Source: a virus. Taken from it: 52,784 bases of DNA. The stretch's first letter is position 1. Every line of letters starts with the position of its first letter. Positions 21,063 through 45,200 of the stretch are shown in pieces. A program made the position numbers and the translations under genes. The DNA lies in the IMG/VR virus record IMGVR_UViG_3300036760_000035, positions 1 through 52,784 of that record, one strand, 5' to 3'. Below the pieces are notes generated by a model. The model made no database searches, was not told the DNA's origin, and saw nothing but the letters and a program-made list of their open reading frames with translations.

Positions 21063-21180
21063 TTCTTACCGTCAAGTCAATGGCATTACACTTGAGACAA
21101 GTGTAGGAATCATTGATGCGCTTGATTTGCTGATTCCGAACATCGGAATTCACAGAGTTTCGATTCGACAACTTAGCCAT
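21025..21180 (-). CDS. Small zinc-ribbon protein
   Basis: 51 residues; purine-rich AAAAGGGAAAAGAGAA precedes the ATG. The C-terminal CLKCNAIDL...CERC is a four-Cys ribbon, and the N-terminus is basic. It overlaps the next gene by 38 bases in another frame. Presumably nucleic-acid or protein binding. Confidence 0.55.
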   Translation of the reverse strand: MAKLSNRNSVNSDVRNQQIKRINDSYTCLKCNAIDLTVRNGQCERCRNDSE

Positions 21181-21249
21181 TTCTCTTTTCCCTTTTCACT
21201 TACAGAACGAATGAGAGTTCCTTTTTTCTTTTCTAATCGAATCGCATAA

Positions 21250-21459
21250 CTCCCGCGCGTCAGTCGTGTCAGTAGTGGGGCGCGTCCAGCTGCCCGTAGG
21301 GGAGCCTACACCCGCCAGCGCCCACAAGCTACCCTGACCCCGGAGCAGCTGGAACAGCTGGCCCCCATGGGCGGTCAGGGGACGGGCAAACGGAAGGGCT
21401 CCCCGGTGAAGGGGAGCCCTAGGACGGCCTACGTCGGCGCTGGCGCCCCACCGGGGCGC
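21250..21459. other. GC-rich stretch with hairpins and gene-relic character
   Basis: Base composition switches sharply to GC-rich. On the plus strand a frame without a start encodes RRGAYTRQRPQATLTPEQLEQLA, reminiscent of C-terminal pieces of high-GC bacterial proteins. Two perfect hairpins lie here: GGGCTCCCC/GGGGAGCCC (about 21397-21420) and GCGCCCC/GGGGCGC (about 21445-21461). The second immediately follows the stop of the leftward gene and may terminate its transcript. Confidence 0.5.
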
Positions 21460-21852
21460 TTAGGTGGCGGCCACCTTCACTTTGGGAACCTTGGACGCCA
21501 CGTAGACTTTCTTATGAGTGACCTGTATCACCAGCGTGTCGCCGTCAACGGTGCCAGCTACTACCACGTCACCTGTCTGAGCTAACTTCGTGTTTCGCAC
21601 CGTGAACCCGGCCCGCGAGAATGCGGCCTTGGCCGATGCCGAAACTGCCGCGTTCAAGTGAGTAGCGGCGTCGTAGCAATCGATGGCCGCGAACGGTATG
21701 TGCCATCCACGGTCAATCGACGTTGCGAGCCGTGCATGGTCAGGCATGTCCATGAACCATTCGTAGAGTTCATCGACTATCGCCGGGATTGGCGGGGTAG
21801 CGGACTTCCCCGCGCTCCCCTTTTCGATTTGCGTGACAAGTTCTGTCCTCAC
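21460..21852 (-). CDS. Hypothetical protein encoded by GC-rich DNA
   Basis: 130 residues from the GTG at 21852, which overlaps a short upstream frame (GTGA); the frame is open back to a TTG at 21903. Middle helical part (IVDELYEWFMDMPDH), then an Ala-rich helix, and a beta-rich C-terminus (GDVVVAGTVDGDTLVIQVTHKKVYV). Codon usage is strikingly GC-rich against the rest of the phage, suggesting recent acquisition. No family is recognised. First gene of the leftward array. Confidence 0.6.
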   Translation of the reverse strand: MRTELVTQIEKGSAGKSATPPIPAIVDELYEWFMDMPDHARLATSIDRGWHIPFAAIDCYDAATHLNAAVSASAKAAFSRAGFTVRNTKLAQTGDVVVAGTVDGDTLVIQVTHKKVYVASKVPKVKVAAT

Positions 21853-22316
21853 TGTGATAACTCCCGCATGGCCGCATCCATATCGATGCCGCGCCTTGCA
21901 CAAACAAACTTACAGTAAGGGAATCTCAGGTGTCAATCACCAATCTTTGCCTGTGCCAAATCTCAGGTTGACTGGCCGTAGGCGATTGCCTGGCCTTGGG
22001 CGGGGGTGGGGCATCATTACGCCTTTGTAGGAATAGTGTTGAGTATAGGAACGGCATTCCTTTGTCAGTGTACTGCTACCGTCATGGACGGTCTGCTATC
22101 GCAATGCGATTAGCCGTAGTGAACCTGATACTTATATAACAATCGTCGGGAGTGCATGGAAAAGAATAGTACACCATTGCATACTGTTGCAGTTGCAATA
22201 CTTTGCAATTAGATACTTGGAATACTGCTAGGAATACATAGAATAATAATTATTCCACTCTCTAATGCCCGGTAGGGGATTGGCTATTAGCCCTTGGTTT
22301 TGGCGGAGAGAGTACT

Positions 22317-23584: not shown

Positions 23585-23658
23585 CTGGGTGTATTTCAGC
23601 CTGGAAGAAGACTCGCTTTGGGAGCGAGTAGTCGTTGGTTCAAATCCAACCACCCAGA
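23585..23658 (+). tRNA. tRNA-Pro (TGG)
   Basis: Acceptor CTGGGTG pairs with CACCCAG. The anticodon stem CTCGC/GCGAG encloses loop TTTGGGA with anticodon TGG, and the T arm GTTGG/CCAAC has loop TTCAAAT. CCA is not encoded. Confidence 0.9.
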
Positions 23659-23687
23659 AAATCAAATTAACTTAAGGAGTACAGATT

Positions 23688-24515
23688 ATGGTGAGTGAAT
23701 TTAATGGAGCGGCTGCGCTCTTTAAGGCTCAGGGACTTGACAATACAATTGAGATTGCAGACTCGAATGGCGTAGTTCATAAGATTAGAGCGAACTCTAC
23801 AACTGGCGTACTGGAGTTCTACAAGGCTAACGATATTATCCAGTCTGTGGGCAGCCTTGGCAGACAGGATCTCTCTGGCATTAATATCGACGCTGCTAAC
23901 ACAGACGGCGGCATCTTTAAGGCCGGTACGTCTGCGGCAAGAGTTATCGAAGATACTGCTAACATGAAGTTCATGTCTTTCTACTTCGACAACGGCGCGG
24001 TATCCGGCGACAGCAGGGGCATCTATTTACGGCAGTACATTACCGGCGCTGGTGGCGGTGGGGATGCTGCAAGATTCTATGAGACTGTTGAGAATGTCGC
24101 TGCCGCTACAGTGAGAGGGGCTCATATCTCCCTCGATTGGGGTGCATCGGGCAGTTGTACAGGTTTGGGTGTCGCGCTTGAATGTACATTACATATACGA
24201 TCTACAGCAGGTGCCGCTGGCACCATTGCTCCGCTCAAGGTTGCCGTTAACAGCGATGCATCAACATCCGATCCTGTCGGTGCTTCACTGAGCATGATTC
24301 AGGTTGTGAACCAGGGTGACGGAACCGGGGGGCTTGATGTTGATACAGATGCCGCTTTGTTTGCCTTTTCCGGTTTTGCATCAGCATCCGGGACAGCAAA
24401 TATGGTTTCTTCGACAAGTCTTGCAGAACTTCCGGCGTCTTCGATTGGTTTCCGCGTTACTTTTGGCGGGGCCGTGTATTACATCCCGGCAGTCATTTCC
24501 ACACAGTGGAACTAA
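23688..24515 (+). CDS. Structural-looking hypothetical protein
   Basis: 275 residues behind AAGGAG. Gly/Ala/Ser-rich beta character with FYFDNGAVSGDSRGIYLRQY, followed by GAHISLDWGASGSCTGLGVALECTLHIR, a pattern seen in uncharacterised phage virion proteins. The N-terminal 50 residues look like a separate small domain. It lies outside the main structural block, among tRNA genes, so a moron or a separately expressed virion or host-interaction protein is possible. Confidence 0.65.
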   Translation: MVSEFNGAAALFKAQGLDNTIEIADSNGVVHKIRANSTTGVLEFYKANDIIQSVGSLGRQDLSGINIDAANTDGGIFKAGTSAARVIEDTANMKFMSFYFDNGAVSGDSRGIYLRQYITGAGGGGDAARFYETVENVAAATVRGAHISLDWGASGSCTGLGVALECTLHIRSTAGAAGTIAPLKVAVNSDASTSDPVGASLSMIQVVNQGDGTGGLDVDTDAALFAFSGFASASGTANMVSSTSLAELPASSIGFRVTFGGAVYYIPAVISTQWN

Positions 24516-24537
24516 ACCTTACCTTAAGGAGTAGTAA

Positions 24538-24849
24538 TTGGAACTAACAGTAGCAGATCGCCTTATGTTGATTAATCTCCTGCCAACCGCAGGAGATATA
24601 ACCACCCTTAGAATAGTAAGGGATCTACAGACTGAGTTGAGTTTCTCGGAAGAGGAACATGCAGTTCTTAAACTTAAGCAGGATGGCGACAGGATTCAAT
24701 GGGACAATTCCGCCGAGACTTTAAAAGACGTGGCCGTTGGCCCAAGGGGACATCTTCTGATAGCCGAAAGACTACAGGAAATAAGCGACAAGAAGGAGCT
24801 AACACTTACCCAGGTGGCCCTCTTTGAGAAGTTCGAAGCCTCGGCATAG
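24538..24849 (+). CDS. Conserved small hypothetical protein (TTG start)
   Basis: 103 residues; AAGGAG before the TTG. The sequence (RLMLINLLPTAGDITTLRIVRDLQTELSFSEEEH) resembles a small family found in many phages close to structural or early genes, with unknown function. A strong terminator follows at 24872. Confidence 0.7.
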   Translation: MELTVADRLMLINLLPTAGDITTLRIVRDLQTELSFSEEEHAVLKLKQDGDRIQWDNSAETLKDVAVGPRGHLLIAERLQEISDKKELTLTQVALFEKFEASA

Positions 24850-24871
24850 GCTCCAAAGGTAAAGATTCCGC

Positions 24872-24895
24872 AGAGGGGGCCGAAAGGCCCCCTCT
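24872..24895 (+). terminator. Rho-independent terminator
   Basis: 10-bp stem AGAGGGGGCC/GGCCCCCTCT with a GAAA tetraloop, followed by a T/C-rich tail. It ends the unit 23566-24849 before the main tRNA cluster. Confidence 0.85.
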
Positions 24896-24990
24896 TGCTC
24901 TTGCTTGAAGTCTCTGGGCGTGGCAGTATAGGAGTTGGGTCGAGCTTAGTAGGGGCGTTTGGGAGCGTCGCTAGAATAACTCCAGCGCAT

Positions 24991-25067
24991 CTCGGAGGGG
25001 CGGGAAAGTGACCGCGCTTGTCTCATACGCAAGATAAATGATGGAGCGTTACCATCCTTCGATACCA
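24991..25067 (+). tRNA. tRNA-Met (CAT), initiator-like
   Basis: Acceptor CTCGGAG pairs with CTTCGAT except for a C1-T72 mismatch. The D stem GCGG/CCGC is perfect, the anticodon stem CTTGT/GCAAG has loop CTCATAC (anticodon CAT), and the T stem is GATGG/CCATC. A73 and CCA are encoded. The unpaired first position recalls initiator tRNA. The T loop AGCGTTA lacks the usual TTC. Confidence 0.7.
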
Positions 25068-25074
25068 ATATCCT

Positions 25075-25150
25075 GCCTTCGTAGCTCAATTGGAAGAGCA
25101 AATCTCTTGTAAAGATTAGGTTGTAAGTTCAAGTCTTACCGGGGGCTCCA
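25075..25150 (+). tRNA. tRNA-Thr (TGT)
   Basis: Acceptor GCCTTCG/CGGGGGC (with G-T pairs), D stem GCTC/GAGC, anticodon stem AATCT/AGATT with loop CTTGTAA (TGT), T stem GTAAG/CTTAC. Encoded CCA. Confidence 0.9.
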
Positions 25151-25175
25151 CTTTTAATAAACATAGGAGAAAGAG

Positions 25176-25255
25176 ATGTCGGGGTTGCAGATATTAATGT
25201 AGACATTGATGAAGTTCTGCTCTGCATTAAGAATTACATCTTAGCTGAACAATAG
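25176..25255 (+). pseudogene. Possible frameshifted mini gene between tRNAs
   Basis: AGGAGAAAGAG precedes ATG TCG GGG, but the frame stops after eight codons. One extra G in the GGGG run would open a 26-residue acidic peptide (ADINVDIDEVLLCIKNYILAEQ) to the TAG at 25253. Either a decayed gene or a sequencing indel. Confidence 0.3.
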
Positions 25256-25327
25256 GAGTATCGTTCAACGGAAGGGCCTTCGTCTTATATACGAATGATG
25301 TAGGTTCGACTCCTACTGCTCCTACCA
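25254..25327 (+). tRNA. tRNA-Ile (TAT)
   Basis: Acceptor AGGAGTA/TGCTCCT, D stem GTTC/GGGC, anticodon stem TTCGT/ACGAA with loop CTTATAT (anticodon TAT, codon ATA), T stem GTAGG/CCTAC. Encoded CCA. A tRNA for the rare ATA codon fits the AT-leaning phage. Confidence 0.88.
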
Positions 25328-25331
25328 AACG

Positions 25332-25403
25332 CGACGATTAGCTCAGTGAAAGAGCGCTCCAGTGCGAGAGATGACAGGGGTTTGATTCCCCTATCGCCGC
25401 CCA
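25332..25403 (+). tRNA. tRNA-like gene with shortened anticodon arm
   Basis: Acceptor CGACGAT/ATCGCCG (one A-C mismatch), D arm GCTC...GAGC and T arm AGGGG/CCCCT with loop TTTGATT are normal, and CCA is encoded. Only 20 bases lie between D and T arms, allowing just a CTC/GAG stem around CAGTGCGA. The anticodon cannot be assigned (GCG or TGC possible). Confidence 0.55.
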
Positions 25404-25404
25404 T

Positions 25405-25478
25405 TCCCCGTTCGTCTAACGGAAGGACATTAGATTTTGGCTCTAAGAATCGGGGTTCGAATCCTCGATGGGGAACCA
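25405..25478 (+). tRNA. tRNA-Gln (TTG)
   Basis: Acceptor TCCCCGT/ATGGGGA, anticodon stem TTAGA/TCTAA with loop TTTTGGC (TTG), T stem CGGGG/CCTCG. Encoded A73 and CCA. Confidence 0.9.
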
Positions 25479-25491
25479 ATGATATTATCAC

Positions 25492-25568
25492 GGCCCGTTA
25501 GCTCAGTTGGATAGAGCGAATCACTTCTAACGATTAGGTCGGGAGTTCGAGTCTCTCACGGGCTGCCA
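25492..25568 (+). tRNA. tRNA-Arg (TCT)
   Basis: Acceptor GGCCCGT/ACGGGCT, D stem GCTC/GAGC, anticodon arm AATCA/CGATT (one A-C mismatch at the loop edge) with loop CTTCTAA (TCT), T stem GGGAG/CTCTC. Encoded G73 and CCA. Confidence 0.88.
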
Positions 25569-25582
25569 AAGAAAGAAATAGA

Positions 25583-26122
25583 ATGAAAGATAAAGATGAA
25601 TATTACTTCGGAGTTGCTGAGGCAATCAGTAAAGGATCTACATGTCCTCGCTTGCAAGTCGGGTGTGTTCTCGTGTCCCAGGACAGAATCAAATCAACTG
25701 GCTATAATGGAGCGATTGCTGGTAAGCCGCATTGTGAAGATGTTGGATGTTTTATTGTCAGAGATCATTGTGTTCGAGCAATACATGCAGAAAGAAATGT
25801 CTTAGACTACGCAGCCTGGGACATCCATATTGGTGATGTTCTTTATTGTACGCATAAGCCATGCGACTCATGTGCTGCCAGTATTCCAGAGATTCTTACT
25901 GTAAAGTATAAGAATGAATATCCTATTAGGGCACTTAATGCTTCCAGTGAAAATCTGGAAGATTCCAACAGGGATCGTGATGTAACGGCTAGCCTGTCTG
26001 CCTTTCCCTCTGATCCCTCCAACTGTTTACATATGAGCCTGGCAAACTATGTGGATATTCAAAATCGTATATTTATTTCGTGCATTAATTGTAAAAGGGT
26101 AATTATGGAATTGCTAGCGTAG
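25583..26122 (+). CDS. Deoxycytidylate (dCMP) deaminase
   Basis: 179 residues. The zinc-dependent deaminase core has H68-A-E70 and P93-C94-D-S-C97, with CPRLQVGCVLV and GYNGAIAG upstream as in dCMP deaminases. It converts dCMP to dUMP, feeding ThyX. The C-terminal 55 residues after the core are unusual and carry a CINCKR pair. The coding frame ends ten bases inside the tRNA-Leu gene that follows. RBS is weak (AAAGAAAG). Confidence 0.88.
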   Translation: MKDKDEYYFGVAEAISKGSTCPRLQVGCVLVSQDRIKSTGYNGAIAGKPHCEDVGCFIVRDHCVRAIHAERNVLDYAAWDIHIGDVLYCTHKPCDSCAASIPEILTVKYKNEYPIRALNASSENLEDSNRDRDVTASLSAFPSDPSNCLHMSLANYVDIQNRIFISCINCKRVIMELLA

Positions 26123-26188
26123 GCCAACGGCAGAGTCAACAGACTTAAAATCTGTATAGTGAGAGTTCGAGTCTCTCCGCTAGCACCA
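26113..26188 (+). tRNA. tRNA-Leu (TAA) with short variable arm
   Basis: Acceptor GCTAGCG/CGCTAGC, anticodon stem ACAGA/TCTGT with loop CTTAAAA (TAA), T stem GAGAG/CTCTC, A73 and CCA encoded. The variable region is only five bases, whereas bacterial leucine tRNAs normally carry a long arm. Confidence 0.8.
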
Positions 26189-26194
26189 TATAAT

Positions 26195-26267
26195 GGAACT
26201 GTAGACCAACGGTAGAGTCATGCGCTTTAGAAGCGTATCAGTGAAAGTTCGAATCTTTCCAGTTCCA
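26195..26267 (+). tRNA. tRNA-Leu (TAG) with short variable arm
   Basis: Acceptor GGAACTG/CAGTTCC, anticodon stem TGCGC/GCGTA with loop TTTAGAA (TAG), T stem GAAAG/CTTTC, A73, no encoded CCA. The variable region is about five bases. Confidence 0.8.
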
Positions 26268-26273
26268 CAAGTC

Positions 26274-26349
26274 AGACTCGTAAGCCAACGGCAGAGCAAT
26301 CCGATTCAAAGTCGGATGGATTTGGGTTCGAATCCCAACGAGTCTACCA
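26274..26349 (+). tRNA. tRNA-Leu (CAA) with short variable arm
   Basis: Acceptor AGACTCG/CGAGTCT, anticodon stem TCCGA/TCGGA with loop TTCAAAG (CAA), T stem TTGGG/CCCAA, A73 and CCA encoded. The variable region is about five bases; the D arm GCCAACGGCAGAG is shared with the TAA gene. Confidence 0.8.
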
Positions 26350-26790: not shown

Positions 26791-29034
26791 ATGACCTTAA
26801 CTGAAAATGGCAGACTTGTAATGGAGAGAAGAATTTCTCCAAGGGATGCAGATGGCAATCCCACAGAGACACCAGAAGAAACATTTGAAAGAGTTGCCAG
26901 CGCGGTTGCCGCTGGCGATCTTATGTTCGGAAGCACACCGGAGCAGTTAAAGAAAATACATGATAAGTTTTACAGACTGTTATCCAGCCTGGACTTTCTT
27001 CCTAATTCCCCAACGTTAGTAAATGCAGGTAGAGAGATTGGGCAGCTATCAGCCTGTTTTGTTATCCCGGTTGAAGATTCAATGGAGGATATTTTTAATG
27101 CTGTCAAGAACGCTGCGCTTATACATAAAACCGGGGGAGGCACCGGCTTTTCATTCTCCAAACTACGAGCAGAAGGTAGCAGAGTTGATAAGACAAACGG
27201 AATCGCAAGCGGGCCTGTGTCCTTTATGCAGGTATTCGATAAGGCAACTGAGGTTATCAAGCAAGGGGGGGTTAGACGTGGAGCTAACATGGGAATCTTG
27301 CGAATCGACCACCCCGATATCAGATCATTCATTCGAGTTAAAGACGATCTAAAGACCCTTACAAACTTTAATATCTCTGTTGCTGTTACTGACGCATTTA
27401 TGGATGCTCTCGATAAGAATGCTAGATATAATCTTATTGATCCTAAGACGCAAGAAGCGACGGGATCTCTTAATGCAAATGAAGTCTGGCAAGAGATTAT
27501 TCAATCTGCATGGAAAACCGGTGATCCGGGACTTGTCTTCATTGACAGGATTAATGCAAGTAGGGCGAACCCGGTACCATCGCTTGGCCCGATTGAAGCT
27601 ACAAATCCCTGTGGCGAGCAGCCACTGTATCCATATGATTCCTGTAATCTTGGAAGTATCAACTTGTCTAACTTTGTTGAAGAACAAAACGGACGGCCAG
27701 TACTTGACGGCGGCAGGCTGATGGAGACAGTAGAAGATGCTGTGCATTTTCTTGATAATGTGATTGAAATAAATAAGTATCCATTACCAGAGATTGACAA
27801 AGTTTCTAAGGCAATCAGGCGAATTGGCCTTGGGGTTATGGGGTTCGCAGATATGCTTATCAAGCTTAAGATAAGATATGGGAGTAACGATTCTCTTGAA
27901 GTGGCAGAGAATATTGCTAAGATAATTGCAAATACTGCCGACCAGAAATCTACCCAACTTGCATTTGCAAGAGGGGCATTCCCACTATATCCGGTATCTA
28001 TTTACAAGGATACTCCAATAAGAAACTCAACAAGAACAACCATAGCCCCCACTGGAACCATCTCTATTATCGCTGGGTGTTCTTCTGGTATTGAGCCTGT
28101 GTATGCATTTAACTTGATAAGAAGTCATTATCTTGATAAAGATGATCCTTCCAAGCGCCATGAAATGGAAGAATGGCATCCGTTATATGAAGCATGGCGC
28201 CTTGCTCATCCAAATCTCCCCCGCCCAGACTATCTTGTTGAAGCAAAGGACATCTCTGTTTCGGAACATGTTGCGATGCAGGCTGCGTGGCAGCGACAGG
28301 TTGATAACTGTGTGTCTAAGACGATCAATCTTCCTAACAGTGCAGATTATGAATTAGTTGATTTGGCTTACAGAGAAGCCTGGGGGATGGGATGTAATGG
28401 AATCACCATCTATAGAGATGGTTGTAGGGATAATCAAGTATTAAGAGAGGAACCAAAAGATGAACAGTCTACCATATCACATAAAAGCCACAACGAAGAA
28501 GTGGTATTGCCAGACCAGCCTGAGCAAGAAGGAGTGGGCGAACCTACTCCCCTCGACACACTTACCAAAAACAGAAGAGTTTCCATTAGCGATACAAGAC
28601 CTGGTATCATCCATAAATTCCGAATTGGAGATTTTAAGGCGTACATTATTGTTGGAATTTCAGATACTGGATCCCCGCGTGAAGTCTTTATCATTGGAAG
28701 TAAAATCGGAAGCACAACGAGGGGGTACCTTGACTCTATCGGTACCCTCATATCAACAGCCCTCCGCAACGGTATCCCTGTCGAGGCCGTTGTCCAGAAG
28801 CTTATCGGAACTAAATTCGAACCCTCTGGCTTCACTGGGGATGGAGCTATTCCCGTTGCGAGCAGCATTCTTGATTATGTTGGCTTATGGCTTAGGAGCA
28901 AATTTTCCCAACCAGACACTGATAAAGTATTTAAGACAGTGCATGGTGACTTATGCCCTGAATGTGACGCCGGACTTTACTACGGAGAGGGCTGTTTAAC
29001 ATGCGTGTCTTGCGGATACTCGAAGTGTGGCTAA
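26791..29034 (+). CDS. nrdJ: Class II (B12-dependent) ribonucleotide reductase
   Basis: 747 residues. Redox Cys C89 (QLSACFV), the active-site loop N272-P-C274-G-E276, HKTGGGTGFSFS, VRRGANMGIL, APTGTISIIAGCSSG and a late EAWGMGCNGITIYR are typical of NrdJ. It ends with a Cys-rich tail (CPECDAGLY...CVSCGYSKC) that recycles the active-site disulfide or binds zinc. Adenosylcobalamin generates the radical, so no small subunit or activase is needed and none is present. The host or environment must supply B12. No cobalamin riboswitch was recognised upstream. Confidence 0.92.
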   Translation: MTLTENGRLVMERRISPRDADGNPTETPEETFERVASAVAAGDLMFGSTPEQLKKIHDKFYRLLSSLDFLPNSPTLVNAGREIGQLSACFVIPVEDSMEDIFNAVKNAALIHKTGGGTGFSFSKLRAEGSRVDKTNGIASGPVSFMQVFDKATEVIKQGGVRRGANMGILRIDHPDIRSFIRVKDDLKTLTNFNISVAVTDAFMDALDKNARYNLIDPKTQEATGSLNANEVWQEIIQSAWKTGDPGLVFIDRINASRANPVPSLGPIEATNPCGEQPLYPYDSCNLGSINLSNFVEEQNGRPVLDGGRLMETVEDAVHFLDNVIEINKYPLPEIDKVSKAIRRIGLGVMGFADMLIKLKIRYGSNDSLEVAENIAKIIANTADQKSTQLAFARGAFPLYPVSIYKDTPIRNSTRTTIAPTGTISIIAGCSSGIEPVYAFNLIRSHYLDKDDPSKRHEMEEWHPLYEAWRLAHPNLPRPDYLVEAKDISVSEHVAMQAAWQRQVDNCVSKTINLPNSADYELVDLAYREAWGMGCNGITIYRDGCRDNQVLREEPKDEQSTISHKSHNEEVVLPDQPEQEGVGEPTPLDTLTKNRRVSISDTRPGIIHKFRIGDFKAYIIVGISDTGSPREVFIIGSKIGSTTRGYLDSIGTLISTALRNGIPVEAVVQKLIGTKFEPSGFTGDGAIPVASSILDYVGLWLRSKFSQPDTDKVFKTVHGDLCPECDAGLYYGEGCLTCVSCGYSKCG

Positions 29035-31066: not shown

Positions 31067-31588
31067 ATGGCTATTAAGTCATTCTATTCACAGAAAGAAC
31101 AGGATGCTATTATAGTTTTCCTTGGGAAGTCTGGACAGAATTATGAGCGGTATTATGAGTTTGTGGAAGCGAATGGTTGGCGGCATTGGTCTAAGTTCTA
31201 CTTCAACAAGTGGTATACTCGACATAGTGATAAGATAAAAATCGCCCGTGCAATTCAAAGAGAATCTATTCAAAAGATCTCTACCTTCGACCGCCCGGCA
31301 AGGATAGACGAACTAGAGAGAACCATAGATCAGATTAAACTTTATCTACGATCTAGTGGAATTAAAGAACATGTGTGTAAAGAGTGTAATGAATTACATA
31401 ATCCACTTAAGCCTGAATTATTTTTGAGAATGATTGCACAGAAGTCTAAGCTATTAGAACAAATCGCAAAAGAGAAGAATGAATGGATGAAAGAGGCCAA
31501 AGTAGATGAACCTGATCTGGGACGATCAATTAGGGATTACGCTTTCAGATCAATTACCGAGAACCAAGAGAAAGAAGACCATACTTGA
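31067..31588 (+). CDS. Probable terminase small subunit
   Basis: 173 residues located two genes before the large terminase. The N-terminus resembles a helix-turn-helix (YSQKEQDAIIVFLGKSGQNYERYYEFVEANGWRHW), then a charged helical region, a CKECNELH pair, and more helix. This layout suits a DNA-recognising small terminase, but no family signature is decisive. AAGGG lies near the start. Confidence 0.55.
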   Translation: MAIKSFYSQKEQDAIIVFLGKSGQNYERYYEFVEANGWRHWSKFYFNKWYTRHSDKIKIARAIQRESIQKISTFDRPARIDELERTIDQIKLYLRSSGIKEHVCKECNELHNPLKPELFLRMIAQKSKLLEQIAKEKNEWMKEAKVDEPDLGRSIRDYAFRSITENQEKEDHT

Positions 31589-31796
31589 TAAATCAGTCTG
31601 GGATAAAATCAAAGAAAACTTTGGAGACCGGTGCGCTTACTGTCTTTGGTTTGGAGCACGGCTTACAAGAGACCATATTCAGCCACTGGCGAAGGGCGGG
31701 GTATCCTCTCCAGATAACATTGTCCCGGCATGTCCCGATTGCAATCAGCGGAAAGCTAACAGAAGCTTATTGGAAATTATAAAGGAAATTACTTAG
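31506..31796 (+). CDS. HNH endonuclease, packaging-associated
   Basis: 96 residues if started at the ATG at 31506 (AGAGG nine bases upstream), overlapping the previous gene by 83 bases. CAYC, TRDHIQPLAKGG, DNIVPACPDCNQRKANRS is a complete HNH motif with its two zinc pairs. HNH proteins beside terminase genes assist genome packaging cleavage in many phages. The leader element follows immediately after its stop. Confidence 0.85.
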   Translation: MNLIWDDQLGITLSDQLPRTKRKKTILDKSVWDKIKENFGDRCAYCLWFGARLTRDHIQPLAKGGVSSPDNIVPACPDCNQRKANRSLLEIIKEIT

Positions 31797-31855
31797 ATGG
31801 TACATAGAATCAAAGATTCTATTACACAGTGGAATTCAGAAAGGATTCAACATGG
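31797..31855 (+). promoter_or_regulatory. Conserved leader element, copy C
   Basis: Contains a 7-bp hairpin (TAGAATC-AAA-GATTCTA), then TTACACAGTGGAATTC, AGAAAGG and TTCAACATGG ending at the terminase start. It nearly matches the minus-strand copy at 16500-16558 and less closely the copy at 143-203. It also encodes a possible leader peptide from 31797 (ATG) that overlaps terL out of frame. Confidence 0.65.
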
Positions 31856-31892
31856 ATCGATTACCCTACCAGGCCTGTCTTCCATATTATGA
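31797..31892 (+). CDS. Possible 31-residue leader peptide
   Basis: ATG directly after the HNH stop; frame ends TGA at 31890-31892. Its SITQWNSERIQHG core parallels SIAQWNAEGVQHG at 145-213. No ribosome binding site is evident. Low confidence. Confidence 0.3.
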   Translation: MVHRIKDSITQWNSERIQHGSITLPGLSSIL

Positions 31893-34392
31893 TGCGCTCG
31901 GATTAGAATTCAAGAATAATAATCCTGCACAGTATGAAGTTCTTATTGGAGATGATAGATTTCCATGCATCATAGGTGGTGAGCGTGGAGGTAAGGCGCT
32001 GGATATAAATACGATCATCCCCACAACGAATGGGATGAAATTTATGAAAGACATAATAGCTGGTGATTATGTCTTCGGGGATGATGGGCTTCCGGCAATG
32101 GTTGTTGCAACATCCGGGATACAGGATAATCGTCCGTGCTCTAAAATAATCTTTGATGATGGATCAGAAATTATAGCAGATGATGAACACGAATGGGCAA
32201 CACAAACTTCTAATGAAAGAAAGAATTCTAGAAGAATAAAGATAAATAAAAAAGAACAACGAATTGTGCAGTCGCCACTAGTTAGTGATAGAAAGTTTGG
32301 AATTAGAACTACTTCTGAAATTTCTAATTCTCTTATTATAACAGGACAAAATAGATCTGATTATGCAAATCATACAATAGTCAATTCTATGCCTGTTCAA
32401 TATGCGAAACAGAAACTAGAAATCGAGCCATATACATTAGGCATATGGCTAGGAGACGGGCACAGCGGCGGAGCGTATTTTACAACAAATGATATAGAAG
32501 TAGTAGAAAACATATCTAAAATTTATCCTGTTAAAAAAGTAAAATCAATATATACCTGGAAGTTTGGTGAAAAAGGAGAAATAATAAAACTTCTTAGATC
32601 ACTAAACATATTCAAAAATAAACACATTCCCACAAAGTATTTAGAATCTTCTATTGAAGATCGTATTAGCCTGCTCCATGGATTAATGGATTCTGATGGA
32701 TATATAGATTCAAGAGGTCAGTGTTATTTTGATAATACTAACAAAAATATAATAGATGGAATAAGAAAACTATTATCGAGTTTAGGGATAAAATCCTATG
32801 TTACAGAATCAATTGCCAAATTATATGGAAAAAACTGTGGAAAAACATGGACTGTTTTTTTTGTTACAGATTTTCATGTTAGTAGAATTAAAAGAAAATA
32901 TGAAAGACAAAAATTATCAGTTGGCAAAAATGCAAAACAAAGATCAATCATATCAATTGAAAAAGTAAAGTCTGTTCCAGTTAAATGTATTGAAGTAGAT
33001 AATAAGTCCCATTTATATCTTGCGGGGGAAACATACATTCCCACCCATAATTCATTCGTTGCAGCGGCGATACTACTGCCACATTTGCTTTTACTTCCAT
33101 TAATAAGAAAAGACAGATTCTTTAATGAGAATGGTAAACCTAAGTTCAACTACCTTGACAAAACAGTCAGGCCGTTGCAGCCAGACTTTGTAATCTTTGG
33201 CCCTAACTATCGCGAGCCACGAATCGAATTTGAGATGGTTGAGACATGGCTCCGTGAGCTAGGCATGATAGCACGCCTCAGTAAGCCCACAGAGGGGGCG
33301 TGGCGGCTCGTGACGAAGGACGGGGTTGTATTGCAGACATGGAGCACTGATGACCCTATGGGTATCCGTGGACTCGACCTGGAGGGGGCTATCGCTGCCG
33401 AGTGTGGCAATATGGAATACGAGTCCATCCTGAGAATCCAGGGTAGAATTTCATCTAAGCGTGGGTTTCTTATCTATGAAGGAACAATGGAGAATTCTAA
33501 AAGATGGTTCGTCAAATTCTCTATCGAAGGCCGCAGGCAGAATAAGTACAGGATTAAGACTTACTCTATTCCTACATGGTGCAATCTCCATGAGTTTCCA
33601 GGAGGCGAGAACGATCCTGAGATACTAAGATTAAAGCAATTATATCCAGAAGACACATGGGCTATGCGTATTGCGGCAGAGCCAATCCCCCCGCGCGAGC
33701 GCGTGATTAACGAGATACACGAAACACATATTAGAAAAGTTAAGTTCCCAAGAGATGATAATGGAAAGATATCTTGCAACATAGAACTCTGGATTGATCC
33801 TGGATATAATCCATCTGCATATGCTGTGTTATGGGTTGCATGGTGGAACACTGATAAAGGAAAGATCTTCTACGTCTTCGACGAATTCTACGAGCAGAAA
33901 ATGCAAACAGAAGATGTGATTCAGAGATGTATACGGCATAAGTTTTATAAGTTCATTAAGCAAGACGGAATTGTAATAGATGTTTCAGCTAAACGTCACG
34001 CCGACGGGAATGAGCCCGCCGTTGAGATATACAGAAAAAGAATGCACAAAGAACCATATACAAAGTACTGGCATGAGAATGCATTGATTGAAAGAATACG
34101 ATCATCTGCTCGTTCCAATCAGATATTTATACATCCTAATTGTTCTGGATTAATAGCAGAACTAGGATTAGGCGAAGAAGTATTTGACAATATGCATCCT
34201 TGGAGATTTCCAATAGGGCGAGATGGTATAATTGTTAGCGATAAGCCAGAAGATAAGTGGAACCACTCATGTAAGGCTTTGGGGTACGGACTTCTAAAAC
34301 ATTTAGGACTTGTTGAAAGACTTGGTGAACGTCCACCGATTCGGAACAGGTTGAAGAAGGTTCATAATATTTTCGATAAAAGGCATCGGTAA
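31852..34392 (+). CDS. terL: Terminase large subunit with intein
   Basis: 846-residue precursor; 494 after removal of the intein (49-400). The ATPase Walker A, GGERGGK-S, is split by the intein between Lys48 and Ser401. A Walker B-like EGAIAAECGNM follows. The C-terminal nuclease shows LWIDPGYNPSAY, GIVIDVSAKRHAD and EDKWNHSCKALGY, the acidic residues of the RNase H-like domain. It translocates and cuts DNA at the portal. AAAGG stands before the ATG within the leader element. Confidence 0.92.
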   Translation: MDRLPYQACLPYYDALGLEFKNNNPAQYEVLIGDDRFPCIIGGERGGKALDINTIIPTTNGMKFMKDIIAGDYVFGDDGLPAMVVATSGIQDNRPCSKIIFDDGSEIIADDEHEWATQTSNERKNSRRIKINKKEQRIVQSPLVSDRKFGIRTTSEISNSLIITGQNRSDYANHTIVNSMPVQYAKQKLEIEPYTLGIWLGDGHSGGAYFTTNDIEVVENISKIYPVKKVKSIYTWKFGEKGEIIKLLRSLNIFKNKHIPTKYLESSIEDRISLLHGLMDSDGYIDSRGQCYFDNTNKNIIDGIRKLLSSLGIKSYVTESIAKLYGKNCGKTWTVFFVTDFHVSRIKRKYERQKLSVGKNAKQRSIISIEKVKSVPVKCIEVDNKSHLYLAGETYIPTHNSFVAAAILLPHLLLLPLIRKDRFFNENGKPKFNYLDKTVRPLQPDFVIFGPNYREPRIEFEMVETWLRELGMIARLSKPTEGAWRLVTKDGVVLQTWSTDDPMGIRGLDLEGAIAAECGNMEYESILRIQGRISSKRGFLIYEGTMENSKRWFVKFSIEGRRQNKYRIKTYSIPTWCNLHEFPGGENDPEILRLKQLYPEDTWAMRIAAEPIPPRERVINEIHETHIRKVKFPRDDNGKISCNIELWIDPGYNPSAYAVLWVAWWNTDKGKIFYVFDEFYEQKMQTEDVIQRCIRHKFYKFIKQDGIVIDVSAKRHADGNEPAVEIYRKRMHKEPYTKYWHENALIERIRSSARSNQIFIHPNCSGLIAELGLGEEVFDNMHPWRFPIGRDGIIVSDKPEDKWNHSCKALGYGLLKHLGLVERLGERPPIRNRLKKVHNIFDKRHR
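31996..33051 (+). other. Class 3 bifunctional intein inside terL
   Basis: 352 residues. First residue is Ala (A-L-D-I-N-T), not Cys or Ser. The end is PTHN followed by Ser+1. The three class 3 markers are present: Trp115 after His113 in block B (DEHEW), Cys379 in block F (VKCIEV) and Thr398 before His399-Asn400 in block G. Two LAGLIDADG helices (LGIWLGDG from about 196, LLHGLMDSDG from about 274) indicate a homing endonuclease. DNA here is markedly more AT-rich than the flanking terminase. Confidence 0.88.
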
Positions 34393-36607: not shown

Positions 36608-38947
36608 ATGCCAGATCCAAGCCCAGCAACGATTGCGGCATTGCGAAAAGCGCAGCAGCAAACAAACGCGTCTCCACGAGATTATCCTTCCAACGACGAG
36701 CCGCCGGTGCTTCCATCCGACCCCCCAGATGGTGGTGGTGGGTATGCCCCACATCCAGATTATGCTGCTCAACAAAAGTTGGCAGAAGATCAATTTACTT
36801 ATGGCAAAGAAACTGATAAGTGGACTCAGGATTTTAATACTAATAAGCAGAACTGGCAACAGGCTGTTGACGATAGAGATCAAGCTCTGGCCGTTGGCAA
36901 TCAACAACTAGCTGCACAAAAGCAAGCAGACGCGAACTATTGGGAGGGGAAGACTCTCGAAGTTCAACAGGCCATGAATAACAATGACAATGCTACCAAT
37001 CTACAAAGAGAGGGTATTGCCGCCAGCGCATCTATGTATGGCCATCAGGTAGACGCCGCTGCACAGATACAGGCAGCGGGTATTGCTGCTGATGCAGCAA
37101 GGCAGGCATCCAGAGACAGGTTACAAGCCGATCTCGCCGGGGCGTTTAACGATCAACAGCGTAATGAGATCGTGGCAAGGTTCAATCAAGAACAAGCCGC
37201 TATCGCTAAAATGGAAGATGAAACCAAGCGACAGATTGAGGCTCGCAATGCTCAGGTCGCTGGCTATAACGCCGAGACGAATCGTGCTGACGTTATGGGT
37301 AATCTTGCCCTTAAAAACAATCAATTCATAGCAGAACAAGCGCAAAACCCCAGAGATTTATTCAGCCTCTACTTTACGCAGCGTGGCCTCACCCCAGATT
37401 GGGAAGCCTTACAGGCAGGTAATCCACAACAGGGAGATGCCTTAACTGTTAAGAATCCAATGAATGCCTTTACCCCAGGATTAGCACTTCCAAGCTTTAG
37501 TTCTGCCGCTGGCGATGCATTTGGAAATGTAGGATCGGCAACTGGAAGTGTTAATGTTAAAAACAATCCCTTTGTAACAATGGGCATGGGAACCCCTCCG
37601 CCTGCATCTTCTTCTGGCGGAGGATTTGTAGCTCCGCCCGCGCCATCATTAAACACAACCTATAATCCTCAGAGTGTTGATATGGGTACAGGCCCAGCTC
37701 AGTTAGACGCCCCGAAGCAATATATTGACATTAACCCCGCAGGCAGACAGGGCGGAATCCCGCGCTCGGGATTGCAGCCAGGTCTGAATCTTTCTACTGT
37801 TGGTTCCGACATTAAGGGAAGCGACATTGACATGGGACAAGCGTATTATGATGTTGGCAAAACAAAGCCAATCGGGGCCGATGATGTAATAACAAAAGGA
37901 ACACAGGTCTATCTTGATTATCCTGCTCGTGCAGCCAGCGGTACAGGAGATGGCTTCTCTACTGCTCGGCAATTCTTAACTGGTGATTCTATGAATAAAA
38001 ATCCATTTGCTGGCGGTGCTCGACCTGAGCTAATTGAGAATCCTACAAGAGCACCCATTCGTGTACAAAATACTAACCAAACAAGAAACACTATGGCTAA
38101 TGCTGATTATCCAGGCGGGAACCGCGCGTCGGGGGTGCAATTTTCTCCGGGGCGGATGGCAACAGAGCCAACTCCAAATTCGATGACGCCAGAAATAGCT
38201 TCTATTCCGGGAACCATGTCTACCGAGCCAACTCCAACAGGGACTCACCCTATGAATAATCAGGGAGAGTGGAACTGGCGCGACAGGCCCGCGCCCGCGC
38301 AACGCCCGCATCCGTTCGCGGCACTACTGCAACAGTATCCTCAATTTGCACAGTTCTCTGGCCAACAACAGACACAGCCTGTACAACAGCAGCAACAGCT
38401 ACCTTTTGATACGAGCATGTTGAGTCAATACCTGCCAATGCAATACGCAGGCGCAAACCTAAACCAGGTTATGCGCGGGCGCAATGGCTGGAATCCAATG
38501 ACAAAGACATCATCTGCCGAGCCAGACTGGATGAATATGTTTCAAAGATTTGCATTAGGAACAGATGTATCTGGTGACTATGCAAATGCTGGACTTGGTT
38601 CTTTATACCAACAGTCAAGCGGAAACTCTTATATGAACGGTTGGGGAAACGTTCCAGATAAACTTAGAATGCTTGCAGATTATGGCGCCCCCGTGCCCCC
38701 AGGGGTTGGCTATGCCTCTACTGGCCGCGTAGCGCCTACTCTTAATCTTGCATCTGCGTTTGCTCAACGTGGGGGCGGATCACTGCCTAGTATGCAAGCA
38801 TTATCCAGAATGACTCCTGGAGAAATGCAGAACTACAGGGGATACTCAGAAGGGGTCGTTGGAGTTCCATGGGCAGATACATTAGACTTCTTAGGTAAGC
38901 CAACTCAGCATCTCCAATCGGCGCAACGCTCCGCTGGCGGAATCTAA
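36608..38947 (+). CDS. Gln/Ala-rich virion protein, ejection protein candidate
   Basis: 779 residues. Residues about 40-260 are a long Gln/Ala/Asp helical array (AAQIQAAGIAADAARQASRDRLQADLAG), probably coiled coil. Beyond 270 the chain is Pro/Gly/Gln/Asn-rich with low complexity (QQQTQPVQQQQQ region about 595). It lies between portal and a giant virion protein, where podoviruses encode internal or ejection proteins. No enzymatic motif seen. Confidence 0.6.
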   Translation: MPDPSPATIAALRKAQQQTNASPRDYPSNDEPPVLPSDPPDGGGGYAPHPDYAAQQKLAEDQFTYGKETDKWTQDFNTNKQNWQQAVDDRDQALAVGNQQLAAQKQADANYWEGKTLEVQQAMNNNDNATNLQREGIAASASMYGHQVDAAAQIQAAGIAADAARQASRDRLQADLAGAFNDQQRNEIVARFNQEQAAIAKMEDETKRQIEARNAQVAGYNAETNRADVMGNLALKNNQFIAEQAQNPRDLFSLYFTQRGLTPDWEALQAGNPQQGDALTVKNPMNAFTPGLALPSFSSAAGDAFGNVGSATGSVNVKNNPFVTMGMGTPPPASSSGGGFVAPPAPSLNTTYNPQSVDMGTGPAQLDAPKQYIDINPAGRQGGIPRSGLQPGLNLSTVGSDIKGSDIDMGQAYYDVGKTKPIGADDVITKGTQVYLDYPARAASGTGDGFSTARQFLTGDSMNKNPFAGGARPELIENPTRAPIRVQNTNQTRNTMANADYPGGNRASGVQFSPGRMATEPTPNSMTPEIASIPGTMSTEPTPTGTHPMNNQGEWNWRDRPAPAQRPHPFAALLQQYPQFAQFSGQQQTQPVQQQQQLPFDTSMLSQYLPMQYAGANLNQVMRGRNGWNPMTKTSSAEPDWMNMFQRFALGTDVSGDYANAGLGSLYQQSSGNSYMNGWGNVPDKLRMLADYGAPVPPGVGYASTGRVAPTLNLASAFAQRGGGSLPSMQALSRMTPGEMQNYRGYSEGVVGVPWADTLDFLGKPTQHLQSAQRSAGGI

Positions 38948-39211: not shown

Positions 39212-42200
39212 ATGTTAATAGATGAAATTGCTTCTGGTCTAAAAAGATCGTCTGGCTTGTCGCGCAGTGGCTTGTTCTTCAAGCCGCGTAGCGGCTTTGA
39301 TCCTATTAACAGCATGTTCGATAATTCAAATCAGGATCAACCACAGATTGATGATGATCTTTTATCAAAGTTGCGAACGGCAATGCAACAACAGAATGCA
39401 TCTCCGCAAGACGTATATACTCCTCCGCAACAAGTTCCACAATACTTAACCCAGGCAGAGAAGCTGGCGAATATGGATGCCCAGACTGCCAATCTCCAAC
39501 AACGAACGCACGGATACCAAGGCGAGGGGCCAAGGACGCCAGATAGATCCACCCTGGATTTTGCTACACGTGGGCCGCGCCTTGATTATACTCACGATGA
39601 AACACTTTTTCCAACTCAATCACGCGAAAAAAGACTTCACTCCGAAATTCCAGATCCAACGGTGGCAGAGTTACTTGCTAATCCTCCAGAAAATGATGAC
39701 GCAACTATATGGGATCTTCCAAAGGACATCCTCCGAGGATTCTCTTCTGGTGGGGAAGCTGTTAATCAAATAGGCGGACTTGCCACAGGTTTCAAAAAGA
39801 GAGATCTTGGAACCAGTGCACTTGATCAGGTAAGAAGAATCCCGAAGGTTGGCGATCTCGCTGCTGAAATACTTGATGTAGGATTGGCCCCGGCCACATT
39901 GCTAACTATTGGTGCTGGTGGTGGTGTAGGAGCAGGAATACGCGGAGCTACTGCTGCAACAAAGTTTAGCCTTGCTGGTAAAATTGCCGCAGGCGCGGTA
40001 GAGCCAATGACATCTGGCCCACTTCTTAATAGGCTGACAGTTGAGATTGCAACACAAGTTGCCGGGATAGAAGCCAGTAAATATGTCAGTGAGCAACTTC
40101 CAGAAGATATGAATCCCTATGGACGGGTAGGAATAACTCTTACTGCTGGCTTATTTGCTGGAGTTGGAACAGCACACGGGATATCAAGAGCGCCGAGCGC
40201 GGCTCGTAAAGCAGTAGAAAATCCTAAGAACTTTGTATTATCAACTCCTGTCCGCTCTGGCATTGGCTTCGCAGCGGGATACACACAAGCAAAGATAAAC
40301 GGTCAGGATGATGAATCTGCTATTAGAGATGGGTTGGTCATGGCTGGTATTAGTGCATTAACAAAGAGTTTTGATAATAATCGTAATCGTGTTGTTGCTC
40401 GTATTCTGAAAGATACACATGGAGATGTGTTCACAACTACTGTTAAACAAATAGTAGAGAGTCCTAATTTCCCACAGAAGATACACTCAACTGATTTCTT
40501 TAAGATGCTTTCTGGTAAGACAAAGACCGAAGAGTTGCAATGGTCGGGGATTGATGACTTAGTATCCAGGCCAAGGATGCTTACAAAACAAGAGATATTA
40601 ACTCATATTGCTGATCATAATCTTGACATGAAAGAAGTGCAATACGATACCACAGAGGCAAAATACCGTGCTTATGCAGTTCCATTAGATAATGAATTAC
40701 CTGGATCATATAGAGCGTTTTTATTACAATTGCCAGAAAAACCATTTACACCTGAGATTAATTACTCAACTCAGAATTATATAGAATACGCAACGATTCA
40801 AAATTCTGATGGTAGTTATACTTGGTTAAAAAAATATCCTAATGAAAAGTGGGATACAGAGAATTCTACTGCACCTTCATATCATTCACCGGAAGAGTAT
40901 ATTCAATTCCGACAATCAAGAGGGGGCGGAAGTTTCAGACATCCTGATACCTTTACATCTAATCACTGGAGCGGAGAACCTAATGTTGTAGCACACATGA
41001 GGACATCTGATATTCCTAATCCAGACGGTGGCAAGACATTATTTGTCCATGAAATTCAATCTGACTGGCATCAAGAAGGAAGGCGAATGGGTTATGCTGG
41101 CGATACTTATCAAAAATTTATTGATGATGCCAGAAATCAAACAGATAGAAAAATAACACTAAAAGAAGAACTAAGAAGTAATCCATATCATGGAATGGAA
41201 ATACCACAGATAGAAAGTAAGGCCGCTGGCGGGGATAAAGTAGCCATTGATTATCTACAAAAAGATAAAGAATTAACTCAAATTGAAGCGACACTTAAGA
41301 ATTTGAAAGAGAAGAGTTCTACCGCCCTTGAAATATCGGGAGGGCGTAGGGAGTTTCGTCCGCCGCATGGCCCTTTTGAAAAAACATGGCATGATTTAGC
41401 AGTCAAGAGATTATTGAGATATGCCGCCGAGAATAACTACACAGAGATCATGCTTGCGCGTGGTGAGCAAATAGGCAAAGCCTCCATGCTTCCAAAGAAG
41501 TCATGGGGGTTTTATGATAAAACACTTCCAGATTCTTTTGAAAGAATTGGCAAGAAGCTAGGAGTTACAATTTCTCAGAAGGAGTCGGGCAGGGTTGTGA
41601 GATGGATTACTACTCCTGGAACAAGTTCAATGACTATCGAGAAGTTTAATACGATTCTTGAACAGGCTAGAATTTTAGCCACCACAGTTCCAAGTTCTGA
41701 ACATGGTCGTATCTTTGAAATATTTTCAGCATTACTCAGAATTAAAGCAGAGATAGATCTGAGCAGCCGCCCACCACGGCATATCTCAGTAAACTATTTT
41801 AGCGATGAGATAAACCAAACCCCTGGGTTAGCTGAATATCTGGCAGAGCGGGTTGGCGGAACTGCTAAGTCTAAGCCAGTCTATAATCCAGTAGCGATCA
41901 TTACGCCAAAGGCAAGAGATGTTATAACTGGCTCCCCGATTGCAATGTATTTCTCTGGCGGGGATACAGGCACTGCATGGCAGAATCTATGGCATGACGG
42001 CGCTCTGAGCGGTGTAGGAATGCTGTTAGGTGCCACACAGGGGGATACGTGGCAGGAGCGCGCCGAGAACGCAATCATCGGAGGAGTGGCTGCCCCTACG
42101 GCTTGGGGGAACATCATGCGTGGCGTTAGAACAATCAAAGGAACTGCCGTTCAACAACAGCCGAGAGGCGGTATGCTGGGTATGGTTGATCCAGAAGAAC

Positions 42201-45200
42201 TTAGAACACTTAGACAACAGACAATGAGTGCAGATCCCTCTGTTGCCTCTGCTGCCGAAAAAAGGTTAGAAGAGATTGGTAATCAGCAGTCATTAGAGAC
42301 TGTTAGTAGAAATCCCAAAATAGCAAGAACTATAAAACCTGATGAACTTAGTAATGAAGAATTGTTGCAACAGCTAGAGTCAGTTGCTGCGACTATGAAT
42401 GACATAGAAGTTGCAAAGTTAATGATTGAAAAAAACGTTGATGCTTTGCATGATATGAACATATCTAATGCCCAAATGGTAAGAGTGAAAGCTTTAATTG
42501 ATACTCTTCCCCCTGGCGAGCCAGACTTGATGGCTGGTGGTGGGAGATGGACAACTACATTAAAATTAAGTAATAAAATAGAAAATGAAATTCGTAGAAG
42601 AAAACTGTTTAATAGAATTGCAAAAAATACCTATAATGGTAAATACGGGTATCACCTCGACGGATCCATTGACGGCGAGCGGTTCAGTGTGCACGTAGGG
42701 TCAAGTGATCGTATTGATCCTTATATGTGGGCAAAAGACAACAATATGACGGAAGATGAATTTCGTCAATTGCAAACACAGGCACCAGAATCCAATGATA
42801 TTTTGTTTTCAAAACCAGTTATTAATAAAGATATGGAAATAATTAAACTTGGGAATAATCGTGGTGATCTAAGCGATGAACAATTTGACAAATATGTAAA
42901 AGATGTTGATGCAAGACGTGCACAAGAAGGCAAATCTGTCACTGGTCAAGACTATTCTACGATGGCCTTTGCCCCCACAAAGGCTTCTCGTAACACTGGA
43001 GGTATCAGCGCAGGGCAAGTAGCTACAAATGCAGCTGTTGGTGGGATCGTTGGTTTTTCTACTGGCGATGGAGATTTAGAAGACAGAATAAAGCGGGCAG
43101 GCATCACTGCTGGCATGGCAACACTTCTTGGAAACTACGCGAGCATGGGAACAACAAATCCCATGAGAGCTATTGTAAAATCTCAAGTGCAAGTTATAGT
43201 AAGAAAGAACATTCTTAAATCAGTTGGCACGTTTGAGTCAATAGACCCGTCCGATGCGCCATATCACCCGAAGTTTAATCCAGAAGGGAAGATCAGTGAA
43301 ACAACGTTTGCTATATCCCCTGGAGATCTTGAAAAAAGAGTTAAGACAATTGGTAACTATCCAAAGGTCGTTGGGGCAATTGCCGAGAGGCTTGGTATTA
43401 ATCCATCTGCTGCCGCGCATACGCCTATTCAAAAGGCATTGATTGCATATACGCAACTTCGTATTGAGGGTGCTGAGTTAACAAAAGCTGCTGTAACAGC
43501 AGCCCTTGACGGTGTATCTTCTAACATGCTTCTCAGAACGCCATTCGGCAGACTCGGTTCAATATTTCGTACAGATGAAAATCTTGTTATTAAAAGTGGT
43601 GCCTTAAAAGGTAGGGCCGTGCTCGATATTATGGAAACATATGCAACAGAACTAACAAACAGGGGAAACCTTTATGGCCCTGGCGTTGGTGCGTTATTGA
43701 ATAATACTCAAAAGGCATACATAGAGAGTGCTATGCAATTAAGATTAGACTCTGCATCATTGTTAAGAAATGCAGGAATTAATTCAGGGGTGGATATTGT
43801 AAAGGATGGAAAATTCTATTTCCATCGCAATGTTGTAGAAATCGAAGGCACGCGTCTTCACACTCGTTCTGATTCTGCCGCCGACAGATTTTACGATACA
43901 GTAGAAGACGGAGTCAAGAATGGCGTGAACTACTCTGATCCGAGAGAAGTTCTTGGCGCAGAGGTTGCGTCGGCATACGCCGCTGTCGCAGATAAGCAGA
44001 TAGCAGATTTTATTGTTGCACATGGGGTTGACCCTGATACAGTGCTTGATCCTGGACTACGTTTGAAACTTGATAAAGCACAGGTAGATTACAACGCTGC
44101 TGACCGAACGTGGCAAGATGTATCAAAGTTGTTAGAAGCAGATCCAACATCTACTGATTTACAGAAGATAATTGAAGTAGCTCATAAAGAAAGAACAGCA
44201 GCAAATAAAATTCTTCAACTGGAAAAGAAAGCTATAACCGAGGAACTCAGAAGGAATACACTGGCTGAGTCTTCCGGCTTGCTACTCCCGGCTTCAATGT
44301 TTGGAGGAGGCGGAACTGGTAATGTTCATGCATTGCCGTATAAACCGAGGATGGGAACAAATGTTCTTCTTAGACCGGAAGACAGAACATTGCTTATTCA
44401 GAAGCTTGGGCTTCATGGCGTTACGCCATCAAATGACAAAAACTTTATAAGCAACATCGTCATCGGCGTCGGTGGCGTAACGGCTGCTGGCCGCACGACA
44501 CTTGCAGGTTTCGACTGGGGGTTAGCATGGCTGCATCTTGCGCCGGTGGCTGGTAAAAGTCGTAAGGCATGGGCGATGGGAACTGCTGCTAACTTCATCG
44601 CTACTGTTAATCCTGGATTTGAAGCACGATATTTAAGAGATAATATTAAATCAATTGGCGAAATGGTTTCAAAGGGCGGAGTATCAATTGGAGACACTGA
44701 AAGATATCTAAGTAATGAAACCGGTGGGACAATTCCACGGACGCTCAGGCGCGCCGGGGAGCTTCCAGTAGTCGGTAAGGGTATTTCTGTTGCTGTATCT
44801 AACGTCGGCGCCCCGGTATTTAGACACACGCTCGGCAGGTTCGAAACAGGATACCAGTCCGGGTTGCTTGTTGCAAGGCACCAATTATGGAAGTCTATGG
44901 AAAACAGCTACAAGGGAAACGAACAAGGGCTTGGCAGACTTGTCAATAACCTTACTGGCGGATTAAACTCTTCTAAACTTGGTGTTGGGGCAGTACAAAA
45001 AGCATTTGAAGGAACATGGGTTGCGTTCTCCCCGCGCCTGGTCAGATCTTCCGCTGCGCTTATGGCAATGGCAGCACAACCATGGACAAAAGAAGGCAGA
45101 GATGCATTGAAGTCACTGGCAATCCTCGCCGGTGGCGTTACGCTTGCGTATGTTGCAATTGGCAAGGCAATGGGCAAGAGCGACGAAGATATTAAGAATG

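Follow-up and report, generated by a model that had tools for sequence, protein, structure and literature searches.

A predicted class 3 homing intein within the Walker A motif of a large terminase from an uncultured virus

The large terminase (TerL) gene of the virus record IMGVR_UViG_3300036760_000035 almost certainly carries a full-length intein of class 3, complete with a two-helix LAGLIDADG endonuclease and lodged between Lys48 and the Ser of the Walker A motif and predicted both to splice and to home. The window analyzed here is the whole 52,784-nucleotide stretch of this IMG/VR record. Within it, the TerL ORF extends from 31852 to 34392 on the plus strand, as do all of its parts described below, and encodes 846 aa from an ATG start. 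The insert occupies ORF codons 49-400 (31996-33051; 352 aa, A1 to N352) in a frame that is open throughout, and its boundaries are exact; the coordinates proposed in an earlier note on this DNA hold to the base in the ORF translation. Upstream lies the N-extein (31852-31995; 48 aa), which runs ...FPCIIGGERGGK (...IIGGERGGK) and ends in the Walker A residues GGERGGK (31975-31995). Downstream, the C-extein (33052-34392; 446 aa plus stop) opens with SFVAAAILLP, and its +1 Ser completes the motif GGERGGKS. The insert begins with Ala, as the earlier note had observed, and ends in THN. A profile built from 67 related inteins has the insert as its sole match in the contig.

The position of the insert is confirmed by relatives that lack it. 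Intein-free terminases, for which the earlier note had recommended a search, were found at nine uncultured-virus loci in IMG/VR (L173-L181, three of which, L177, L178, and L180, are the same contigs as L013-L015), with TerL proteins 47-60% identical to the spliced sequence. All nine read GGER(G/A)GK(S/T) without a break, which demonstrates the empty site, bears out the placement between GGERGGK and S, and means that removal of codons 49-400 gives exactly the family motif. For example, L181 reads DRFPLIVGGERGGKSFATAAILLPH, whereas the window reads DRFPCIIGGERGGK up to the insert and SFVAAAILLPH after it. A search of IMG/VR with the C-extein as a single protein gave no match, and the alignment queries A1 and A4 recovered terminase relatives. 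When 25 terminases are placed in one tree, the intein-bearing window sequence is nested among relatives that lack an intein, away from L093 and L094, which have one. This tree needs three changes of intein state, two of which are forced by well-supported branches; as read from these sequences, it is a record of patchy gain or loss, as expected for a mobile intein. The base composition points the same way with less weight. The insert has a GC content of 32.2%, vs 41.7% for the N-extein and 43.1% for the C-extein, and 0.3% of all 1056-base windows across the contig are as low. The higher AT content reported in the earlier note is therefore real, but the separate origin drawn from it is only suggested, since low GC fits such an origin without proving it and the patchy distribution is the better evidence.

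The interrupted protein is identified as a terminase because of its homology to annotated TerL of Microbacterium phages (24-27%), the conserved Walker A and downstream motifs that the extein has in common with L013-L015, and a gene order common to its relatives. This order is DnaB, a small ORF, a TerS-like gene, HNH, TerL, and a portal-like gene, where the labels TerS-like and portal-like follow from position and synteny, without a family match. In Pfam, no terminase family matches the extein, and among the annotated terminase families of PHROGs that match the ORF, three do so mainly over the intein region and two weakly over the C-extein. Between the TerS-like gene, which it overlaps, and TerL lies a free-standing HNH endonuclease gene (31506-31796, plus strand; 96 aa; Pfam HNH, 4.9e-13). 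This gene was considered as a second homing insertion beside the intein, being absent from L013-L015, and that idea was ruled out, as the closest intein-free relatives carry it. It is kept in L173, L174, L175, L176, and L181, whose TerL proteins are ~60% identical to that of the window, and is missing from L177, L178, and L180 (47-53%), so the HNH gene is independent of the intein and is perhaps a packaging-associated HNH.

The endonuclease domain of the insert features two LAGLIDADG helices, in agreement with the earlier note: block C (LGIWLGDG, or YTLGIWLGDG in fuller context; 32437-32460) with the catalytic Asp154, and block E (LLHGLMDSDG; 32671-32700) with the catalytic Asp234. In Pfam, the region between the splicing halves matches LAGLIDADG_3 (1.8e-8) and Hom_end (7.3e-7). 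An AlphaFold model of the intein based on alignment A3, which holds the window intein and 66 contig-derived inteins, reaches a mean pLDDT of 94.3 with a high-confidence endonuclease region, and it replaced a single-sequence model with a pLDDT of 31. By Foldseek, this model matches PI-SceI (E 5e-21; TM 0.74 by query length), as well as PI-PfuI, other intein endonucleases, and I-DmoI. It also matches the class 3 mini-inteins 6bs8, 6rix, and 6riy (TM 0.79-0.85 by target length), and its best matches among viral predicted structures are intein-bearing phage DnaB and terminase proteins. The insert is thus predicted to adopt the intein (HINT) fold.

A class 3-type intein that still splices, while its endonuclease no longer cuts and the element persists only by inheritance, is an unlikely though real possibility. 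Endonuclease decay is common among inteins generally. Furthermore, the matches listed include no close intein-bearing relative (the best intein is 46-48% identical), and since the nearest intein-free alleles are only ~60% identical in TerL, recent homing is not visible. Against decay, both catalytic acids as well as Asp232 are intact, as are the two helices that carry them, the frame is open, and the endonuclease region is modeled with high confidence. Homing by an active endonuclease is the preferred reading.

The splicing residues place the intein in class 3, which is defined by the lack of a nucleophile at position 1 (PMC5050341). Block A (ALDINTIIPTTNG; 31996-32034) starts with the non-nucleophilic Ala1 where a Cys, Ser, or Thr would otherwise stand. 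Block B (GSEIIADDEHEWAT; 32161-32202) holds His65 (B:10; 32188-32190) and Trp67 (B:12; 32194-32196), the predicted initiating nucleophile Cys331 sits at F:4 (32986-32988), and block G (PTHN; 33040-33051) provides Thr350 (G:5), His351 (G:6), and Asn352 (G:7). The Trp-Cys-Thr triplet is hence complete, as is the further set of His B:10, His G:6, Asn G:7, and Ser+1; Ser or Thr at +1 is typical of class 3 (PMC5222942). The earlier note had assigned precursor residues Trp115, Cys379, and Thr398, which are intein residues 67, 331, and 350, to blocks B, F, and G, and this assignment withstood alignment to 6rix, 6bs8, and 6riy and to 89 related phage inteins. In a phmmer search of all PDB chains, the top matches are the class 3 mycobacterial DnaB inteins 6rix (2.7e-23), 6bs8 (5.1e-23), and 6riy (1.3e-22), in alignments that span both ends of the insert and pair His65/Trp67, the block F Cys, and the block G THN; the numbering of His65 and Trp67 is even the same as in 6bs8 and 6rix. 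The catalytic set of MchDnaB1, Cys124-His65-Thr143 with Trp67 (PMC7664689), maps onto Cys331-His65-Thr350 with Trp67 of the insert. Matches to gp41-1 are far weaker, both for 6riz, a variant engineered with class 3 residues (6e-8), and for 6qaz, the natural class 1 form (2e-5). The NCBIfam intein C-terminal model scores 15.0, just below its cut-off of 15.6, as can happen with divergent phage inteins. Chance resemblance is excluded because blastp against inteins in other viral contigs gives E-values down to 6e-98.

Mis-assignment of a class 1 or class 2 intein is accordingly very improbable. Although Ala1 is also found in class 2, the members of that class are KlbA orthologs that have Asp at F:4, Ser at G:6, and Cys at +1 (PMC4031507), where the window intein has Cys, His, and Ser, respectively, and class 1 demands Cys, Ser, or Thr at position 1. 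The full Trp-Cys-Thr set and the class 3 identity of the best solved relatives argue against both, and the residues rule out a class 1, a class 2, and a bacterial intein-like identity alike. A broken, non-splicing insertion (a bacterial intein-like domain or a dead intein) that leaves the terminase non-functional is scarcely credible, given that all splicing residues are present, including the +1 Ser nucleophile, unlike in bacterial intein-like domains, that the C-extein is undamaged, with conservation reaching its end, and that the family scans turned up no second terminase.

As a class 3 intein, the insert would be expected to follow the route in which Cys F:4 attacks the upstream junction, the N-extein passes to the +1 residue, Asn cyclizes, and the exteins are joined (PMC5222942; PMC4031507; PMC7664689). 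Here, Cys331, helped by His65 and Thr350, would attack the Lys48-Ala1 bond to form a branched thioester at block F, and the N-extein would then move to Ser+1, the second predicted nucleophile. Cyclization of Asn352 with the help of His351 would release the intein and join GGERGGK to S, and the ligated extein peptide would read GGERGGKSFVAA. In P-loop ATPases, the Walker A Ser binds Mg. We strongly infer that the terminase ATPase is dead until spliced, because the P-loop is split between the Lys and this Mg-binding Ser; TerL should work as an ATPase only after splicing. The endonuclease, in turn, would cleave terminase alleles that lack the intein, at the very P-loop codons where the window intein sits, whereupon repair would copy the element in, and the element may persist because its insertion site is essential. 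Among mycobacteriophage TerL inteins, splicing has been shown for five and DNA cleavage for two (PMC5050341), so by analogy both activities are likely in the window intein.

Class 3 inteins of this type are widespread. A profile-pattern search of IMG/VR yielded at least 590 confirmed intein relatives, and the set examined comprised 90 inteins, namely the best 80 of these at least 590, nine other loci, and the window intein. Trp, Cys, Thr, His B:10, and Asn G:7 are found in all 90, the penultimate His (G:6) in 88, and Ala1 in 71, proportions that describe the examined group rather than all inteins, because membership was decided by similarity, using patterns in which the block F Cys is itself a component. 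The +1 residue is Thr in 45 and Ser in 42 of those counted among the 90. Of the 88 with a readable upstream junction, 87 are preceded by Lys, nearly always the P-loop Lys, the sole exception being L001. In L001, a related class 3 intein (1864-3030) sits at a downstream terminase site, between ECYVAA and Thr, outside the P-loop. Two class 3 inteins have the penultimate His replaced, with LPTRN before Ser in L004 (Gordonia phage YungMoney, intein in CDS 1791-4376) and IPTSN before Ser in L143. By single linkage, 78 of the 90 exteins form one terminase-like cluster. The data do not support the earlier note in ranking class 3 as the least common splicing class: class 2 has been described as KlbA orthologs only (PMC4031507), and phage contigs carry many class 3 inteins at the P-loop site, so that it is not clear that class 3 is the rarest.

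The first 25 kb of the window gave no megablast match to named phages, so this part of the genome is without a close named relative in that set. A genome scan for prophage relatives produced one weak match, to an Acidobacteria MAG at 25% identity, which is too little for naming a host. A tRNA cluster at 23585-26349 on the plus strand contains eight genes (Pro, Thr, Ile, Gln, Arg, and three Leu) and adjoins a cytidine/dCMP deaminase gene (25583-26122) and a ribonucleotide reductase gene with a TSCPD domain (26791-29034). An ORF of 2489 aa (39212-46681, plus strand) and an adjoining ORF of 779 aa (36608-38947) have no match in PHROGs or Pfam. Around 21121-22177, GC peaks at 0.56 against a contig mean of 0.44, in a region with short ORFs only and no Rfam match.

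N-cleavage of the class 3 intein MchDnaB1 is inhibited by H2O2 (PMC7664689), and by analogy the window intein might be a regulatory switch and not only a selfish element, in which a redox-sensitive Cys starts splicing and restores the ATP-binding loop. This idea is improbable; were it true, oxidative or metal stress could delay DNA packaging. The window intein leaves current understanding unchanged. With its empty-site relatives and intact endonuclease, it is a further, well-resolved example of a phage class 3 intein in the P-loop of a packaging ATPase, and it can serve as a benchmark for tracing how inteins are gained and lost in this uncultured phage group and as a candidate for class 3 splicing studies.

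There is nothing exceptional about the window intein: its kind is known, many phages carry the arrangement, and the literature already describes it. A phage origin of class 3 inteins has reportedly been argued before. Among named phages, class 3 inteins at the TerL P-loop are found in Mycobacterium phage Eureka, Escherichia phage kvi, Synechococcus phage B23, and Vibrio phage 489E54-1. The described terminase site between Lys and Ser/Thr is TerL1-a (PMC5050341), and the mycobacteriophage inteins of this type (Lys before Thr) and gp8 of the cluster E phage Eureka have the same P-loop insertion in the large terminase as the window. The Eureka gp8 intein likewise has the Trp, Cys, Thr, His B:10, Ala1, and LAGLIDADG features, but inteins of its type are only ~33-36% identical to the window intein, and the extein belongs to a distant TerL branch with Thr rather than Ser at +1. 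The inteins of kvi, B23, and 489E54-1 bear the class 3 signature at TerL GK before Thr and are 32-34% identical to the window intein (blastp), and they occur in terminases of other families and in other hosts. Mycobacterial DnaB1 class 3 mini-inteins (6bs8 and 6rix) resemble the window intein in the splicing domain, His65/Trp67, the block F Cys, and the block G THN, but differ in their DnaB host protein and in lacking an endonuclease domain. Among the matches listed, the closest inteins are those of L093 (46-48%) and L094 (43%), both in large terminases of the broad family to which the window TerL belongs. L093 has its intein at the same site, GK before Ser, and L094, in which the upstream end lies off the contig, has the same downstream Ser junction. 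The exteins of both are only 29-30% identical to that of the window, and the inteins are therefore not recent copies.
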